Shown here: positions 16,916 to 25,153 of the stretch, piece after piece
Layout of the letters: each line of letters starts with the position of its first letter
How positions within the stretch are numbered: position 1 is the first letter of the stretch
Assembly (NCBI RefSeq): GCF_000526155.1
Contig: NZ_JAFN01000001.1
Location: 1,823,014 to 1,887,013, forward strand
Origin: Deferrisoma camini S3R1
GTDB taxonomy: Bacteria > Desulfobacterota > Deferrisomatia > Deferrisomatales > Deferrisomataceae
Length of the DNA: 64,000 nucleotides
Direction of reading: 5' to 3'
Position numbers and translations under genes: made by a program
The notes under the pieces: generated by a model
Told to the model about the DNA's origin: nothing
What the model saw: the letters and a program-made list of their open reading frames with translations, nothing else
Database searches by the model: none

Positions 16916-18295
16916 TCACGCGTGGCCCGCGCGGGCCAGGGCCGGCCGGGGATCCACCGCCGACTGGTCGAGGGCCGCCGCCGCCAGGGGCAGGCCCTGG
17001 GCCAGCGTGAGGAGCTGGGTCACGTACACCACCGGCAGCGTGAACCCCAGGTCCCCGGCCATCTCGGGCTGGCGTTCGTCCAGGTTCACCTGGCACAGGG
17101 GGCATGCCACGGCCACCACGTCCGCGCCCCGGGCCTTGGCGTCGGCCAGCACCTTGGCCGTCATCTCCTTGGCCCGCTCCACCTGGGGCACCGAGAGGCT
17201 GCCCCCGCAGCAGTCCGTCTTGCGGGACCAGTCCACGGGCTCGGCCCCCAGCGCCCGCACGATCCGCTCCATGGCGGTGGGGTTCTCCGGATCGGGAGCC
17301 CCGGTGATCCGGGCCGGGCGGGTGAGCAGGCACCCGTAGTAGCAGGCCACCTTGAGGCCGTGGAGCGGCCGGCGGGGCTCGAAGCCGTCGTCCGTGCACC
17401 GGCCCTCCAGCAGGTCCAGGGCGTTGGCCACGGTCACCGTGTCGCGGTACTCGTACCCCATCCAGTCGTCCACGCGCACGGCCAGCCCCCCGTCCTCCCG
17501 GTACTCGGCCAGGGCGGCCTTGAACCGGCCGTAACAGGCCGCGCAGGGGGCCACCACCCGATCCAGGCCCATCCGCTCCACCAGGGCCAGGCTGCGCAGG
17601 GGCAGGCCCACCGCCAGGAACGCGTCCGTGCCGTGGGCCGGCGTGGTGCCGCAGCAGGTCCAGCCCTTCGGCTCCACCAGCTCCACCCCCAGGGCCCCGG
17701 CCGCCGCCCGGAACGAAACGTCGTAGGCCCTGCCCGTGGCGTGGAGGGAGCACCCCGGGTAGTAGGCCACCCGGTTCGGGGCGGGCCCCGCCCACGGGAC
17801 CCGCCGGGGCGGCCGGACCACCTCGGGCAGCAGCCGGATCTTGCCCTTGCGGATCATCCGCAACCCCATGGGGAGGTCGCGGAACGGCTGCTTCTCCCGC
17901 AGGTTCAGCTCGCCCATGAGCCCCAGCTCGTACACCCGGCCCAGCAGCTTCACCTGCCGCATGAACACCTTGTAGAACCGGGCCACCTCGGGCACGGACG
18001 GGGAGTCCAGGGTCTCCTGCCGGAACCGGTCCAGGATGGCCGGCAGGTCGATGCCCTGGGGGCACCGGGTCACGCAGGTCTGGCACGAGGCGCACAGCCA
18101 CACCGTGCGGCTGCGGGCCACCGAGGCGTCGCCGTCCTGGATGGCCCGGAGCACCTCGCTGGGCAGCAGGTCGAAGTGCTCGGCCATGGGGCACCCGGCC
18201 GAGCACCGCTGGCACTGGTAGCACAGGTACGCGTTCTCTCCGGTGGTCTGCTCGACTCGGCGGGCCACGGACTCACGGGTTTGGGTCACGGTCAT
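16916..18295 (-). CDS. HdrC-HdrB fusion, heterodisulfide-reductase-like subunit
   Basis: A 459-residue fusion. The N-terminal HdrC part (about 1-120) has two [4Fe-4S] motifs, CYQCQRCSAGCP and CASCQTCVTRCP. The C-terminal HdrB part has the two CCG domains that hold noncubane clusters: YYPGCSLHATG, CCGTTPAHG, CAACYGR, then CYYGCLLTRP, CCGGSLSVPQ and CPLCQVNLDE. It is the last gene of the minus-strand cluster and should receive electrons from the HdrA flavoprotein. In a Moorella-type MetFV-HdrABC-MvhD complex HdrB is the high-potential end of a bifurcation. The ATG at 18295 lies 29 bases from the metF stop. The terminator follows directly. Confidence 0.9.
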   Translation of the reverse strand: MTVTQTRESVARRVEQTTGENAYLCYQCQRCSAGCPMAEHFDLLPSEVLRAIQDGDASVARSRTVWLCASCQTCVTRCPQGIDLPAILDRFRQETLDSPSVPEVARFYKVFMRQVKLLGRVYELGLMGELNLREKQPFRDLPMGLRMIRKGKIRLLPEVVRPPRRVPWAGPAPNRVAYYPGCSLHATGRAYDVSFRAAAGALGVELVEPKGWTCCGTTPAHGTDAFLAVGLPLRSLALVERMGLDRVVAPCAACYGRFKAALAEYREDGGLAVRVDDWMGYEYRDTVTVANALDLLEGRCTDDGFEPRRPLHGLKVACYYGCLLTRPARITGAPDPENPTAMERIVRALGAEPVDWSRKTDCCGGSLSVPQVERAKEMTAKVLADAKARGADVVAVACPLCQVNLDERQPEMAGDLGFTLPVVYVTQLLTLAQGLPLAAAALDQSAVDPRPALARAGHA

Positions 18296-18324
18296 GGGAG
18301 CACTCCGGTTGGTGGCTTCGTTCC

Positions 18325-19311
18325 TCACCCCGCCTCGGCCGCGCCGGGCAGGGGTTGGGGCCGGGGCAGGAGGCCCGCGCCCTCCACGATGGGCCGCACG
18401 GCCTCCTCCCACTCGATGGCCATGATGTGCACCCCGGCCACGCCCGGGATCTCGCGGACCTCCTGGATCTGCTCGATGCAGATCCGAATGCCCTCGGCCC
18501 GGAACGCCTTGGACCGCTCGGCCTTGTCGTCGATGCCCTTGCCCGCGGCCACCATGCGGTCCACGATATCGTCGGGCACGTCCATGCCCGGCACCTGGTC
18601 TCGCATGTACTTGGCCATGCCCGGCCCCTTGAGGGGGCTCAGGCCCGCCAGCACGTACACCTTGTCCAGGAGCCCCAGGTCGCCCAGGCGGGCCATGAAC
18701 TCCCGGAACCGGTCCATGTTGTAGATGCACTGGGTCTGGATGAACCGGGCCCCGGCCTTCACCTTTTTGGCCACCCGGAACGGGCGGTAGGGGTACGGCT
18801 CGGCGAACGGGTTCTCGGCCGCCCCCAGGAAGAACCGGGGCGGCTCGCCCTCCACCTCCTCGCCGTTGGCGAACACCCCTCGGTCCCCCATGTCGGCCAG
18901 GATCTTCAGCAGTTGGATCGAGTCGATGTCCCACACGTTCTTAGCACCCGGGTGGTTGCCGAACGTCTGGTGGTCGCCCGACAGGCACAGCAGGTTCCGG
19001 AGCCCCAGGGCCCAGGCGCCCAGCAGGTCCGCCTGGATCGCCAGGCGGTTCCGGTCGCGGCAGGTCATCTGCACCACCGGCTCCACGCCGGCCTGCTGGG
19101 CCAGCAGGGCCGCGGCGATCGACGACATGCGCACCACCGCGGTCTGATTGTCGGTGATGTTCACGGCGTCGGCCGCCCCCCGGAGGAGGTCGGCCTTGCG
19201 CCGGATCACGGCCGGATCCGCCCCCTTGGGCGGCCCCAGCTCGGCCGTGACCGCGAACGATCCGGATTCGAGCACGCGTTCCAAATTGCTGCGGGTATCG
19301 CTCTGGGACAT
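18325..19311 (-). CDS. metF: Methylenetetrahydrofolate reductase (MetF)
   Basis: A 328-residue FAD TIM-barrel enzyme reducing methylene- to methyl-tetrahydrofolate. Seen are the N-terminal TAELGPPKGAD with the catalytic Glu, NITDNQTAVVRMSS, LLCLSGDHQT (FAD phosphate region) and ARFIQTQCIYN. It lacks an NADH-using extension and sits next to metV, as in acetogenic MetFV complexes. The ATG at 19311 is preceded by an octamer repeat array and GCCAGGAG. It is the fifth gene of the cluster, followed by HdrCB. Confidence 0.93.
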   Translation of the reverse strand: MSQSDTRSNLERVLESGSFAVTAELGPPKGADPAVIRRKADLLRGAADAVNITDNQTAVVRMSSIAAALLAQQAGVEPVVQMTCRDRNRLAIQADLLGAWALGLRNLLCLSGDHQTFGNHPGAKNVWDIDSIQLLKILADMGDRGVFANGEEVEGEPPRFFLGAAENPFAEPYPYRPFRVAKKVKAGARFIQTQCIYNMDRFREFMARLGDLGLLDKVYVLAGLSPLKGPGMAKYMRDQVPGMDVPDDIVDRMVAAGKGIDDKAERSKAFRAEGIRICIEQIQEVREIPGVAGVHIMAIEWEEAVRPIVEGAGLLPRPQPLPGAAEAG

Positions 19312-19328: not shown

Positions 19329-19373
19329 GGCTGGAAGGCTGGAATGCTGGAAAGCTAGGAGGCTAGGAGGCTG
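19329..19373 (-). repeat. 8-bp repeat array between metV and metF
   Basis: In the gene sense: AGCCTCCT, AGCCTCCT, AGCTTTCC, AGCATTCC, AGCCTTCC, AGCCTCG. It encodes the last residues of MetV (SSLLAS) and its TAG stop and forms the metF leader. The period is strictly 8. Confidence 0.75.
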
Positions 19374-20074
19374 CTCGCCGGCTCGGACTCCTCGATCGTT
19401 GGGGGGCCGCGACGCAGGTCCTCGCGCACGATCCGGCCGGGGCCGCCGCTGGGACCGGGCGACCAGTCCTTGGGCGGCTGGATCTCGGCCAGCCGGTCCA
19501 GGTGACCCAGGGCCTCCATCCGCTCGTAGATCAGGTGCCACGCACAGGGGGTGTCGGGGCTGATCTCGCACTTGCCGCCCTGGGAGCCCCCGCACGGCCC
19601 GTTCAGAAGGCTCTTGGAGCACCGGGCCACCGGGCAGATGCCGTCGGTCAGGCCCAGCACGCAGTCCCCGCACCCGGCGCACCGGGCCTCCCACACCCCG
19701 TGCTCGGTGGGCAGGCCGTAGAACTTGGTGTTCAGCCCCGGCACGGTGCGCAGCTCGGGGAACCGCTCCACCATGGCCTGCACCCCCACCCCGCAGGCCA
19801 GGCTCACCACGCAGTCCACCCCCTCCAGGGACGGCCGGGCGGCGTCCAGGTACTCCCACTCGCACTGGCGCTGCACCACGCCGTGGGTGGCGTCGAGCGA
19901 GCGGCCCTGCACGCGGGCCCGCATGCGCAGCGAAGCGGCCAAAACCTCGGCCTCCTTCTCGCCTCCGGCGAAGCACACGGTCACGCAGGTGCCGCACCCC
20001 AGCACCGCCACCCGTTCGGCCCCCTCGGTCAGGGCCAGGATCTCGTCCAAGGGCTTCTGCTCGGCCACGATCAT
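19355..20074 (-). CDS. metV: MetV-like zinc/Fe-S subunit (MTHFR C-terminal-type protein)
   Basis: A 239-residue protein of the 'methylenetetrahydrofolate reductase C-terminal' family. Cysteine-rich motifs: LGCGTCVTVCFAGGEKE near 30, then ARCAGCGDCVLG, CPVARCSKSLLNGPCGG, KCEISPDTPCAW. In Moorella MetV binds MetF and transfers electrons to it. The ATG overlaps the mvhD stop by 4 bases. The last residues and stop codon are made from an octamer repeat array, so the C-terminal tail is probably not functional sequence. Confidence 0.85.
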   Translation of the reverse strand: MIVAEQKPLDEILALTEGAERVAVLGCGTCVTVCFAGGEKEAEVLAASLRMRARVQGRSLDATHGVVQRQCEWEYLDAARPSLEGVDCVVSLACGVGVQAMVERFPELRTVPGLNTKFYGLPTEHGVWEARCAGCGDCVLGLTDGICPVARCSKSLLNGPCGGSQGGKCEISPDTPCAWHLIYERMEALGHLDRLAEIQPPKDWSPGPSGGPGRIVREDLRRGPPTIEESEPASSLLAS

Positions 20075-20538
20075 GCCCGCACCTCCGCTTCCGCACCCGC
20101 CCCGGCCTGCTCGTCCGGGGCGTCGGCGCCCTTGAGGGGGTTGGGACCCAGGGCGCGCACCCGCTCGGTCATCTCCTCGCAGATCTCGGCGAACCTCTGG
20201 GCCTGGGCCGACGAGAGGTTGTACATCCGCACCCGCTCGCCGCCGATCCCGATCTCGTCCAAGAGCCCGGCGATGTACCGGACCCGCCTCTTCGCGTTCG
20301 TATTACCTTCCAGGTAATGGCAGTCGCCCTCCAGTCACCCGGCCACGAACGCGCCGTCGGCGCCCCGCTCGAACGCCTCGAGCACGTGGGCCACGTCGAG
20401 CTTGCCGGTGCACGGAAGCCGCACCACCCGCACCCCTTCGGGGTAGCGCAGCCGCATGGCGCCGGCCAGGTCGGCGGCGCCGTAGGCGCAGTGGTGGCAA
20501 CAGAAGGCCACGATCCTGGGTTCGAACTCCTGGGACAT
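20071..20538 (-). CDS. mvhD: MvhD-like subunit, predicted selenoprotein (in-frame TGA at 20335-20337)
   Basis: Read through one TGA, the frame gives a full 155-residue MvhD/FrhD-like protein. The first half has the family N-terminus FCCHHCAYGAADLAG and PCTGKLD. The TGA is codon 68 in the context GAFVAG-TGA-LEGDCHYLEGN, where MvhD proteins normally have GC..GDCHY..GN. The second half continues with NTNAKRRVRYIAGLL and MYNLSSAQAQRFAE in the same frame without gaps. A hairpin fitting a bacterial SECIS follows the TGA. A Sec-containing MvhD homologue (VhuD) is known in methanogens. MvhD carries a [2Fe-2S] cluster linking partner enzymes to HdrA. Start ATG 20538 has GGAGG. The only alternative is a chance nonsense mutation that kept an intact downstream frame. 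Confidence 0.88.
20302..20337 (-). promoter_or_regulatory. Bacterial SECIS-like hairpin after the TGA of mvhD
   Basis: On the minus strand the TGA (20337-20335) is followed after 23 bases by the apical loop of a perfect 7-bp stem, ATTACCT-GGA-AGGTAAT (20318-20302). The stem is unusually AT-rich for this genome. The loop starts GG, and the UGA-to-loop distance lies inside the range described for bacterial SECIS elements. Confidence 0.75.
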
Positions 20539-20600: not shown

Positions 20601-23600
20601 TCAACACCCGCCGGGCGCGGCAGAGGCGTCCCCCTCGCCTCGGTACCAGGTGTCGGCCCCCAGCAGGGCGTCCACGGTGGCGGCCACCTGGTCGTCGGTG
20701 TAGTGGGCCAGCTGGATCGCCTTGGCCGGGCACTCGGCCGCGCACACCCCGCAGCCGTGGCAGGTGGCCGGCTCCACGTACGCCGCACCCGCGATCCCGC
20801 CGGCGCCCTGCAGATCGGGCCGGATCTGCGGCACGTCGTAGGGGCAAACCCGCACGCAGGTCAGGCACCCGGCACACCGCTCCGGCACGACCTCGGCCAC
20901 CACCCCCTCGCTCTCCACGTGCTCCTTGGCCAGCACCGTGGCCGCCCGAGCCGCCGCGGCCTGGGCCTGGGCCACCGACTCGGCCAGGAGCTTGGGGTAG
21001 TGGGCCAGGCCCGCCAGGTACAGGCCCCGAGTCTGGAAGTCCACGGGCCGGAGCTTCACGTGGGCCTCCAGCAGGAACCCGTCGCTGTCCAGGGGCACCT
21101 TCAGCCGGGTGGCCAGCTCCCCCAGGTCCGCATGGGGCACGATCGGCTCGGCCAGCACCAGGAGCTCCGGGCTGAGCGATACCTCCCGGCCGGTGGCCGC
21201 GTCGCGGTACCACACCCGCACCGTGCCGTCGCCCGTGGCCACCTGGGGCGGCTCGGCCTCGTCGTACCGCCGGAACACCACGCCCCGGCGACGGGCCTCG
21301 GTGTAGAGCCGCTCCTTGAACCCGTACGTGCGGATGTCCTTGTACAGCACCGTGATCCGGGCCTGGGGCCGGAGCTCCTTGAGGATCAGGGCGTTCTTGA
21401 GGGCGGTGACGCAGCAGGTGCGGCTGCAGAACCGCTGGGCCGGCCCCACGCACAGCACCATGACCACCTCGTCGGGGATGGACCGGCGGGCGATGGGAAG
21501 GTCCAGGTCGTGGCCGTTGCCCGAGGCCTTGTGGAACAGGAACTCCTCGAAGTCGAGGCCGGTCACGACGTCGGGGTGGGCGCCCAGGCCCAGGTCCGGG
21601 CCCCGGTACTCCCGCGCGCCGGTGGCCACGATCACGGCGCCGTGCTCGACCACGTCGGTGTCGCCCGAGCGGTGGCGCAGCCGGCTCGTGAAGTTGCCCG
21701 TGAACCCCGAGATCTCTTCCAGCTCGGTTTCGAAGTGCACCCGGATGTTGGGGTGCTGCAGGACCCGCCGCACCCGGTCCTCCAGGTACTCCCGGGGGCT
21801 CCTGCCGGTCTCCAGGAACCGGATCCGCCGGAGGTTCCCCCCCAGCTCGCCGGTGCGCTCCACCAGGTGCACCGGGAACCCCTGGTCCGCCAGGTCCAGG
21901 GCCGCGGCCATGCCGGCCGCCCCACCGCCCAGCACCAGGGCCTGGCGCTTCACGGGGTAGCGCAGGCTCCGCACCGGCCGCAGCCGGGTGGCCCGGGCCA
22001 CCGCGGCCCGCACCAGGTCCATGGCCTTGCGGGTGGCCCCCTCCCAATCGCCGCCGTGGACCCAGGAGCAGTGGTTGCGGATGTTGGCCATCTCGAACAG
22101 CATGGGGTTCAGGCCGGCCGCCCGCACCGCGTCCTGGAACAGGGGCTCGTGGGTCCGGGGGCTGCACGAGGCGACGACCACCCGGTTCAGGCCCTTCTCC
22201 TTCACGGTCTCGGTGATGTGGGCCACGGTGTCCTGGCTGCAGGTGTAGAGGTTCGCCTCGGCGTGGACCACGCCGGGGAGCGAGCCCGCGTACTCGGCCA
22301 CCCCCGGCACGTCCAGGAACCCGCCGATGTTCGAGCCGCAGTGGCACACGAACACGCCCACCCGGGGCTCCTCACCGGCCACGTCCCGCTCCGGCGGGTA
22401 CTCGGGCTCTCGGGTCAGGGTGCCCCGGGCCCCGGCCAGCAGGCTTCCGGCCCGCGAGGCGGCCCCCGAGGCCTCGACCACGGTCTCGGGGATGTCCTTG
22501 GGCTCCCGGAACGGCCCGGCCACGTAGATGCCCGGCCGGGAGGCCTCCAGGGGCTTGAACAGGGTGGTGCGGCAGAACCCGTGGTCGTCCACCTCGATCC
22601 CCAGCCGCCGGGCCAGGTCCCGCACCGAGGCCGAGACCTCCATGCCCACCGACAGCACGACCAGGTCGAACCGCTCCTCGCGGATCTCCCGCCCCCTCAC
22701 GTACCGGACCAGCAGGTCGCCGGTGTCCGGGTCCTCCACCAGCCTCGACACCCGGCACCGCTCGTAGCGCACCCCGTACTCCTCGCGGGCCCGGCGGTAG
22801 TAGGCGTCGTACCCCTTGGAGAACGAGCGAGTGTCCATGAAGAACACGGCCACCTCGGTTCCGGGCTCGTGCTCCTTGACCATCACCGCTTCCTTGGCCG
22901 CGTACATGCAGCACACGCTGGAGCAGTAGTCGTGGTCCTGGTCCCGGGAGCCCACGCACTGGAGGAACGCCACCTTCTTGGGCACCTTGGCGTCGCCCGG
23001 CCGTTTCACGTGGCCCCGGGTGGGGCCCGAGGCCGAGAGCATGCGCTCGAGCTGGAGCGAGGTGACCACGTTGGGGAACCGGCCCAGGCCGTACTCCTGG
23101 CTGAGCCGCGCGTCGTAGGCCTGGTACCCGGGCGCGAGCACCACCGCCCCGACCCTGAGCTGCTGCGTGTCCTCCACCTGGTCGTGGTCCACGGCGTCGG
23201 CCTTGCAGGCCTCGACGCACGAGTAGCACTCGGAGCACACCCCGCAGCTCAGGCACCGCTCGGCCTCCTTGCGGGCCTCGTCCTCGGTGTATCCCAGGCT
23301 GACCTCGTCGAAGCCCTGGAGCCGCTCCTGGGCCTCGCGGGTGCGCACGTGGACCCGGCGGCCCTTGCGGATCTCACCACGGGTCATCCGCTCCCGCAGC
23401 TCCTCGTCCGAGAGCTCCGCCACCGGCATCCGCTCCTTGGGGGCCGGCCGCACGGCCTCGCCCCGGAGGTAGGCGTGGATGCCCCGGGCCGCCCGGTGGC
23501 CCGAGGCCACCGCCTCGATCACGAAGGCGGTGCCGGTGGTGGTGTCGCCCGCGGCGAACAGCCCCGGCCGGGCCGTGGCCCCGGTCTCGGGGTCGGCCAC

Positions 23601-25145
23601 CACCGTGTTCTGGCGGGTGATCTGGACGCCGGTGTCCGGCGGCAGGAACGCGAGCCCGGCCCGCTGCCCCACCGAGAAGATCACCGTGTCGCACTCCACC
23701 TCGAACTCCGAGCCGGGCACCGGCACGGGCCGGCGCCGGCCGGTCTCGTCGGGCTCGCCGGGCTCCATGCGCTGGAACCGCACGGCCCGCACCCGGCCGT
23801 CGGGCCCTGCCAGGATCTCCACCGGGTTCGAGTGGAAGGTGAACGCCACCCCCTCTTCCTCGGCGTGCCGGATCTCCAGGGGATGGGCCGAGGCCTCCTC
23901 GCGGGAGCGGCGGTAGTGCACCGCCACGTCCGCACCCAGGCGCACCCCCGTGCGGGCGCAGTCCATGGCCACGTCGCCCGCGCCGATCACCACCACCCGT
24001 CGGCCCACGTCGGGGGGGGGGCCCAGGCGCACGTCCCGCAGGAACGACGTGTTGGTGAGCACCCCGGGCAGGTCGTTGCCGGGGATCGGCAGGCGCACCC
24101 CCTCGTGGGCGCCCACGGCCACCAGCACGGCACGGAATCCGTCGTCGAACAGGTCCTCCACGTTGGACACCGGGTGGTTGAGCCTGAGGTCCACCCCCAG
24201 GTCCACGATCTCCTGCACCTCGCGCTCGATGATCGAGGCCGGCAGCCGGTACTCGGGCACCCCCACCCGGAGCATGCCGCCGGCCACCGGCAGGGCCTCG
24301 AACACCGTCACCGGGTACCCCTCGAGCGCCAGGTCGCGGGCCGCGGTGAGCCCGCAGGGGCCCGCGCCGATCACCGCCACCCGCTCGTCGAACCGTCTCT
24401 CGGCCGGCGGGGGGGGCTCGTAGGGCCGGGAGTAGGCCCAGTCGGCCACGAACCGCTTCAGGGCCCGGATGTCCAGAGGCTCGTCCACCCGGCCCCGGGT
24501 GCAGGCGTCCTCACACCGGTGGTTGCAGATGCGGCCGCAGATGCCGGGGAACGGGTTGTCGAGCTTGATCGTGCGAAACGCGGCCTCGTAGTCCCCGGCA
24601 CGGATGTGGGCGATGTACCCCTGGGCCCGCTGCCCGGCCGGGCAGGCGTGGCGGCAGGGGCTCACGCCGCGCTTCTCCACGGCAAAGGCGTTGGGCACGG
24701 CCTGGGGGTAGAGCTTGTGGATGGCCTTGCGGGTGGAGAGCCCCTCGTCAAAGGGGTTGGGGATGGCCACCGGGCACACCTTCTCGCAGTCGCCGCAGGC
24801 GGTGCACCGGTCCTCGCGCACGTACCGGGGCCGACGCCGCAGCCGCACGCGGAAGTCACCCGCGTGGCCCTCCACGGCCAGCACGTCCGCGTTGGTGATC
24901 ACGTCGATGTTGAGGTGGCGGCCCGTGTCCACCAGCTTGGGGCTGATGGTACACATGGCGCAGTCGTTGGTGGGAAACGTCTTGTCGAGCTGGGCCATGT
25001 GGCCGCCGATGGCCGAGCGGTTCTCCACCAGGTACACCTTGAACCCGGCGTCGGCCAGATCGAGGCTCGCCTGGATGCCGCCGATCCCGCCGCCCACCAC
25101 CATGACCGCGCCGGTCAGCCCGGCGCTCCCTGACGCTTGACCCAT
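20601..25145 (-). CDS. HdrA-GltD-HdrA triple flavoprotein fusion
   Basis: A 1514-residue protein. Residues 12-145 are an HdrA N-terminus (VVGGGIGGIQASLDLADAG, CAMCTISPKLVDTG, ferredoxin CTACGDCEKVCP). Residues 163-560 are a complete NfnB/GltD-type NADPH-glutamate-synthase-like module (CRHACPAGQ, CGRICNHRCEDAC, FAD VIGAGPCGLTAARDLAL, pyridine-nucleotide VVVIGAGDVAMDCAR, GLFAAGDTTTG). Residues 631-912 resume HdrA (CLSCGVCSECYSCVEACK, CVGSRDQDHDYCSSVCC). Residues 928-1514 are a second HdrA (VCHCGSNIGG, LGGGAAGMAAALDLADQG, C-terminal CAGCLTCVRVCP and CHGCGVCAAECP). This suggests a NAD(P)H-using bifurcating or confurcating core joining MvhD, HdrCB and MetFV. ATG 25145 follows GGGAGC and octamer repeats. 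No internal TGA. Confidence 0.9.
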   Translation of the reverse strand: MGQASGSAGLTGAVMVVGGGIGGIQASLDLADAGFKVYLVENRSAIGGHMAQLDKTFPTNDCAMCTISPKLVDTGRHLNIDVITNADVLAVEGHAGDFRVRLRRRPRYVREDRCTACGDCEKVCPVAIPNPFDEGLSTRKAIHKLYPQAVPNAFAVEKRGVSPCRHACPAGQRAQGYIAHIRAGDYEAAFRTIKLDNPFPGICGRICNHRCEDACTRGRVDEPLDIRALKRFVADWAYSRPYEPPPPAERRFDERVAVIGAGPCGLTAARDLALEGYPVTVFEALPVAGGMLRVGVPEYRLPASIIEREVQEIVDLGVDLRLNHPVSNVEDLFDDGFRAVLVAVGAHEGVRLPIPGNDLPGVLTNTSFLRDVRLGPPPDVGRRVVVIGAGDVAMDCARTGVRLGADVAVHYRRSREEASAHPLEIRHAEEEGVAFTFHSNPVEILAGPDGRVRAVRFQRMEPGEPDETGRRRPVPVPGSEFEVECDTVIFSVGQRAGLAFLPPDTGVQITRQNTVVADPETGATARPGLFAAGDTTTGTAFVIEAVASGHRAARGIHAYLRGEAVRPAPKERMPVAELSDEELRERMTRGEIRKGRRVHVRTREAQERLQGFDEVSLGYTEDEARKEAERCLSCGVCSECYSCVEACKADAVDHDQVEDTQQLRVGAVVLAPGYQAYDARLSQEYGLGRFPNVVTSLQLERMLSASGPTRGHVKRPGDAKVPKKVAFLQCVGSRDQDHDYCSSVCCMYAAKEAVMVKEHEPGTEVAVFFMDTRSFSKGYDAYYRRAREEYGVRYERCRVSRLVEDPDTGDLLVRYVRGREIREERFDLVVLSVGMEVSASVRDLARRLGIEVDDHGFCRTTLFKPLEASRPGIYVAGPFREPKDIPETVVEASGAASRAGSLLAGARGTLTREPEYPPERDVAGEEPRVGVFVCHCGSNIGGFLDVPGVAEYAGSLPGVVHAEANLYTCSQDTVAHITETVKEKGLNRVVVASCSPRTHEPLFQDAVRAAGLNPMLFEMANIRNHCSWVHGGDWEGATRKAMDLVRAAVARATRLRPVRSLRYPVKRQALVLGGGAAGMAAALDLADQGFPVHLVERTGELGGNLRRIRFLETGRSPREYLEDRVRRVLQHPNIRVHFETELEEISGFTGNFTSRLRHRSGDTDVVEHGAVIVATGAREYRGPDLGLGAHPDVVTGLDFEEFLFHKASGNGHDLDLPIARRSIPDEVVMVLCVGPAQRFCSRTCCVTALKNALILKELRPQARITVLYKDIRTYGFKERLYTEARRRGVVFRRYDEAEPPQVATGDGTVRVWYRDAATGREVSLSPELLVLAEPIVPHADLGELATRLKVPLDSDGFLLEAHVKLRPVDFQTRGLYLAGLAHYPKLLAESVAQAQAAAARAATVLAKEHVESEGVVAEVVPERCAGCLTCVRVCPYDVPQIRPDLQGAGGIAGAAYVEPATCHGCGVCAAECPAKAIQLAHYTDDQVAATVDALLGADTWYRGEGDASAAPGGC

Positions 25146-25153
25146 GATCTGCT

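Follow-up and report, generated by a model that had tools for sequence, protein, structure and literature searches.

The window analysed in this work is a stretch of 64,000 nucleotides from Deferrisoma camini S3R1, and metF, metV, hdrA, hdrBC and mvhD are all found in one cluster in it, which is transcribed in the order hdrA, mvhD, metV, metF and hdrCB. The genes and features of this cluster are as follows.

20601 to 25150, minus strand: hdrA in a long form, into which a GltD-like NAD(P)H domain is inserted (HdrL-like), from Pfam and NCBIfam HdrA2 and glutamate synthase small-subunit models; start provisional
20071 to 20538, minus strand: mvhD, 155 aa, selenocysteine (Sec) at codon 68, from translation and PF02662 (E = 6.7e-49)
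20335 to 20337, minus strand: TGA codon 68, read as selenocysteine, from translation and the TGA present in 9 of 9 orthologues of the order
20302 to 20318, minus strand: bacterial SECIS hairpin ATTACCT-GGA-AGGTAAT with G first in the loop, from position, codon choice and conservation
19355 to 20074, minus strand: metV, PF12225 methylene-tetrahydrofolate reductase C-terminal (E = 5.2e-37)
18325 to 19311, minus strand: metF, PF02219 MTHFR (E = 1.3e-35)
16916 to 18300, minus strand: hdrC-hdrB fusion with two CCG domains and 4Fe-4S domains; start approximate

The HdrCB assignment is weaker than the others, as the matches to TIGR03288 (HdrB, E = 4e-36) and TIGR03290 (HdrC, E = 2.1e-12) are both below the curated cut-offs. 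The mvhD translation from minus-strand positions 20538-20071 reads MSQEFEPRIVAFCCHHCAYG...VAG-U68-LEGDCHYLEGN...EVRA-stop, and its frame contains only two TGA codons, codon 68 (TCA on the plus strand at 20335-20337) and the terminal stop, which overlaps the start of metV (ATGA; overlap sequence GCATGATC). The original prediction, made from the letters alone, held that the in-frame TGA at 20335-20337 replaces the first cysteine of the GC..GDCHY..GN motif and that both halves are typical MvhD in one frame. The first statement was borne out by the frame and by the alignment of homologues, and the second by the single frame and by the match of both halves to a single family, PF02662 (FlpD), with a profile score of 165.4 bits (curated cut-off, 22.3). 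Residues 1-137 also align with MvhD chains of solved structures. When the VhuD model NF045873 (NCBIfam) was used, the protein scored 181.5 bits, which is below the curated cut-off of 215, and it is thus related to VhuD without being filed there.

The relatives of the gene allow two alternative origins of the in-frame TGA to be judged. Among 12 genomes of the order that were searched, nine orthologues were found, three of them from the same genus and six from more distant relatives, in separate genome assemblies, and all nine have TGA at codon 68. The six more distant orthologues have 67-82% protein identity over the whole protein length. Since the TGA is common to nine orthologues from separate assemblies, a sequencing error and a pseudogene can both be excluded. 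An error in sequencing or assembly, with TGC or TGT as the true codon, would agree with the frequent Cys at column 68 among the homologues (76 of 129), but the TGA recurs across these separate assemblies and is accompanied by a SECIS that is written in rare codons; we regard this reading as barely conceivable. The mechanical ORF list, which breaks mvhD in two, seems to present a pseudogene or a gene that ends at codon 68 and is followed by a second, independent ORF. However, the identity to the more distant relatives extends along the whole protein, the identical TGA is found in all relatives of the order, the SECIS is conserved, and the ATGA coupling to metV is intact, so that this reading is also very improbable.

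Further evidence for a selenoprotein gene was obtained from the hairpin behind the TGA. It had been described as a perfect 7-bp stem with a GGA loop, and exactly this was found at 20302-20318, with the stem starting 16 nt and the loop 23 nt downstream of the TGA. Like other bacterial SECIS elements, it lies just downstream of the UGA and has a small apical loop with a G. As a small hairpin with -4.5 kcal/mol on its own, it does not stand out in plain folding energy (z = -0.74); the case for a SECIS is therefore built on placement, codon choice and conservation. First, in placement and codon choice, the hairpin uses the codons CAT, GAA, GGT and AAT, each of which has a usage of 4-5% in the neighbouring genes, and an equally stable, correctly placed hairpin was obtained in none of 20,000 synonymous shuffles with the codon usage of the cluster, compared with 401 of 20,000 under uniform codon usage. 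Second, in seven orthologues, the degenerate codons at invariant residues were identical at 10 of 11 positions in residues 69-80, compared with 7 of 67 elsewhere (Fisher p = 1.5e-7). A compensatory change was also observed, in which Tyr TAC to Phe TTC is accompanied by Gly GGT to GGA and the base pair is kept. Third, of 47 distinct Sec-68 genes, drawn from several phyla, 45 form the outer six pairs in the same register, but only 3 of 74 Cys-68 homologues do; these counts describe the SECIS and not the frequency of Sec, as the locus set includes loci fetched for the Sec-68 (site-2) pattern (L054-L089). The conserved register, the rare codons and the compensatory change together uphold the identification of this hairpin as a bacterial SECIS, and a chance origin of the TGA and hairpin is excluded. 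The signature CATTACC-nnnnn-GGTAAT is very clean, and it can help to find and correctly annotate such genes in high-GC genomes.

A search for selA, selB, selC and selD found all four, as the earlier reading required, in the genome, which is 98% complete and consists of one contig of 4.24 Mb. SelA (591.7 bits), selB (340.3 bits) and selD (353.5 bits) are all above the curated cut-offs, and the tRNA-Sec (selC) has the anticodon TCA and a score of 72.6 bits. A second tRNA-Sec candidate (L002, 49.7 bits) was rejected, as it was identified as tRNA-Ser by ARAGORN. The complete Sec system speaks against another explanation, in which a different, selenium-free mechanism would insert Trp or Cys at the UGA. 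Nothing was found in favour of this explanation, and it is hardly to be expected, because column 68 is otherwise occupied by Cys only, and no such hairpin is found behind the terminal TGA of mvhD. Other selenoprotein genes were also observed in the genome. The selD gene itself (L018, 1501-2418) has an in-frame TGA, which lies in a UAAK motif and is followed by a stable hairpin. Of the three other MvhD paralogues, two have TGA at position 17 (CxxU; L023, 1498-1893, and L024, 1531-1929), and the third (L022) has Cys at both sites. In the L024 paralogue, no hairpin was detected by the same simple rule, and the rule is therefore incomplete.

We consider it almost certain that mvhD is a selenoprotein gene in which SelB and the hairpin decode UGA-68, with a product that is most likely the electron connector of a HdrA-HdrCB-MetF-MetV-MvhD complex. 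In the proposed mechanism, SelB would bring Sec-tRNA(Sec) to the ribosome and bind the hairpin 16 nt behind UGA-68, which would be decoded as selenocysteine, and the second UGA, without a hairpin, would terminate MvhD. The protein would then most likely serve as the [2Fe-2S] electron connector of a methylene-tetrahydrofolate reductase complex, through which electrons would move between the partner oxidoreductase and HdrA with its bifurcating flavin. That the codon is decoded in the cell, that the complex forms and in which direction electrons flow are predictions from the genes. The gene set is that of the electron-bifurcating methylene-THF reductase of Moorella and of the Chloroflexi DscP3 cluster (PMC5736913, PMC6085437). 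Compared with Moorella, HdrC and HdrB are fused here and HdrA has a GltD-like domain, and the Moorella MvhD beside metV (L132) has Cys at both positions instead of Sec68. With its inserted glutamate synthase small-subunit-like domain, the HdrA also resembles HdrL of Desulfobacterium autotrophicum (PMC2702500).

The alignment of 129 distinct homologues indicates where the selenium would be placed. Columns 14, 17, 43, 68 and 73 are Cys or Sec in all of them; cysteine is invariant at 14, 43 and 73, either residue occurs at 17, and column 68, for which such an alignment had been proposed as a check, is Cys (76) or Sec (53) and nothing else, so that Sec is confined to 17 and 68. In solved complexes, the [2Fe-2S] cluster of MvhD lies close to the bifurcating FAD (PMC12350162). 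Because MvhD is a [2Fe-2S] subunit and residue 68 belongs to its five invariant Cys/Sec columns, Sec68 is likely to be at or near the Fe-S cluster, and it may tune the cluster potential or oxygen tolerance. In the solved MvhD of 9SFI/9T1S (F420-non-reducing hydrogenase subunit delta), X is given at exactly the Cys17 and Sec68 columns (9sfi_K), presumably standing for Sec at both, whereas the Deferrisoma MvhD has Sec at column 68 only.

Selenocysteine in MvhD has already been published for bacteria and archaea, and this gene adds one more case. The original prediction had named only methanogens as the precedent, but the bacterial family is also established (PMC1794560, PMC2702500). As early as 2006, 19 FrhD selenoproteins of bacteria were listed by Zhang and colleagues, who described conversion both from Sec to Cys and from Cys to Sec (PMC1794560), and four Sec-MvhD (MvhD1/2/3/5) were reported in Desulfobacterium autotrophicum (PMC2702500). 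In a 2026 review, CxxU and two-Sec forms are given for the FrhD/MvhD/VhuD family (PMC13188914). The gene described here shares the family (PF02662), the Cys/Sec columns and the in-frame UGA with these selenoproteins of bacteria and methanogens; however, the motif usually cited is CxxU, which corresponds to position 17, and here position 17 is Cys and Sec is found only at 68. We dropped the idea that Sec at 68 is peculiar to the order, as the pattern was found in 169 of 395 genomes of the phylum (reversed-pattern control, 1), and the Sec-17 pattern likewise in 169 of 395. We found no description of a Sec-MvhD in a methylene-THF reductase/heterodisulfide reductase cluster for the order Deferrisomatales, and a well-documented example is now added.

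The pattern of Sec17, Sec68 or neither in metV-linked MvhD is less documented than Sec-MvhD itself. Among MvhD genes with MetV in the locus, 35 rows have Sec17 only, 24 have Sec68 only, and 34 have Cys at both. In a quick tree of these 93 rows, which has a small number of columns (143) and many open forks, at least seven state changes were required, compared with 43 with shuffled labels. In the same tree, the Deferrisomatales MvhD group with Sec-68 sequences of Chloroflexota, namely those whose retrieved DNA includes metV, and are separate from the forms with Sec-17 or Cys in other Desulfobacterota. The hdrABC-mvhD-metVF clusters of Chloroflexota contain the nearest Sec-68 MvhD outside the order, with the same SECIS sequence, although they belong to a different phylum. 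Because the Sec position is shared across phyla, horizontal transfer between Chloroflexota and Deferrisomatales is suggested, and given the few columns and many open forks, we put it forward as a suggestion only. We propose, with about even chances of being right, that metV-linked MvhD either lacks Sec or has it alternately at 17 and 68 (51 residues apart, the latter with a conserved SECIS of its own), through at least seven changes, that either position gives a similar redox benefit, and that Deferrisomatales gained its form along with a cluster of the Chloroflexota type. Such alternation between two columns could be used to probe which of the invariant cysteines are important for passing electrons to HdrA.

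Two further observations were made in other MvhD genes. Sec at 68 with nearly the same SECIS is found in MvhD of a series of Chloroflexota loci (L103, L104, L119, L133, L134, L143-L145, L149, L150 and L152-L154), and a limited literature search gave no paper on Sec in MvhD of Chloroflexota. In a few MvhD matches of other Desulfobacterota (G078, G005, G042, G282, G214 and G254), in-frame TAG or TAA occurs besides or instead of TGA, for which pyrrolysine, stops at the end of the match or errors are possible explanations.
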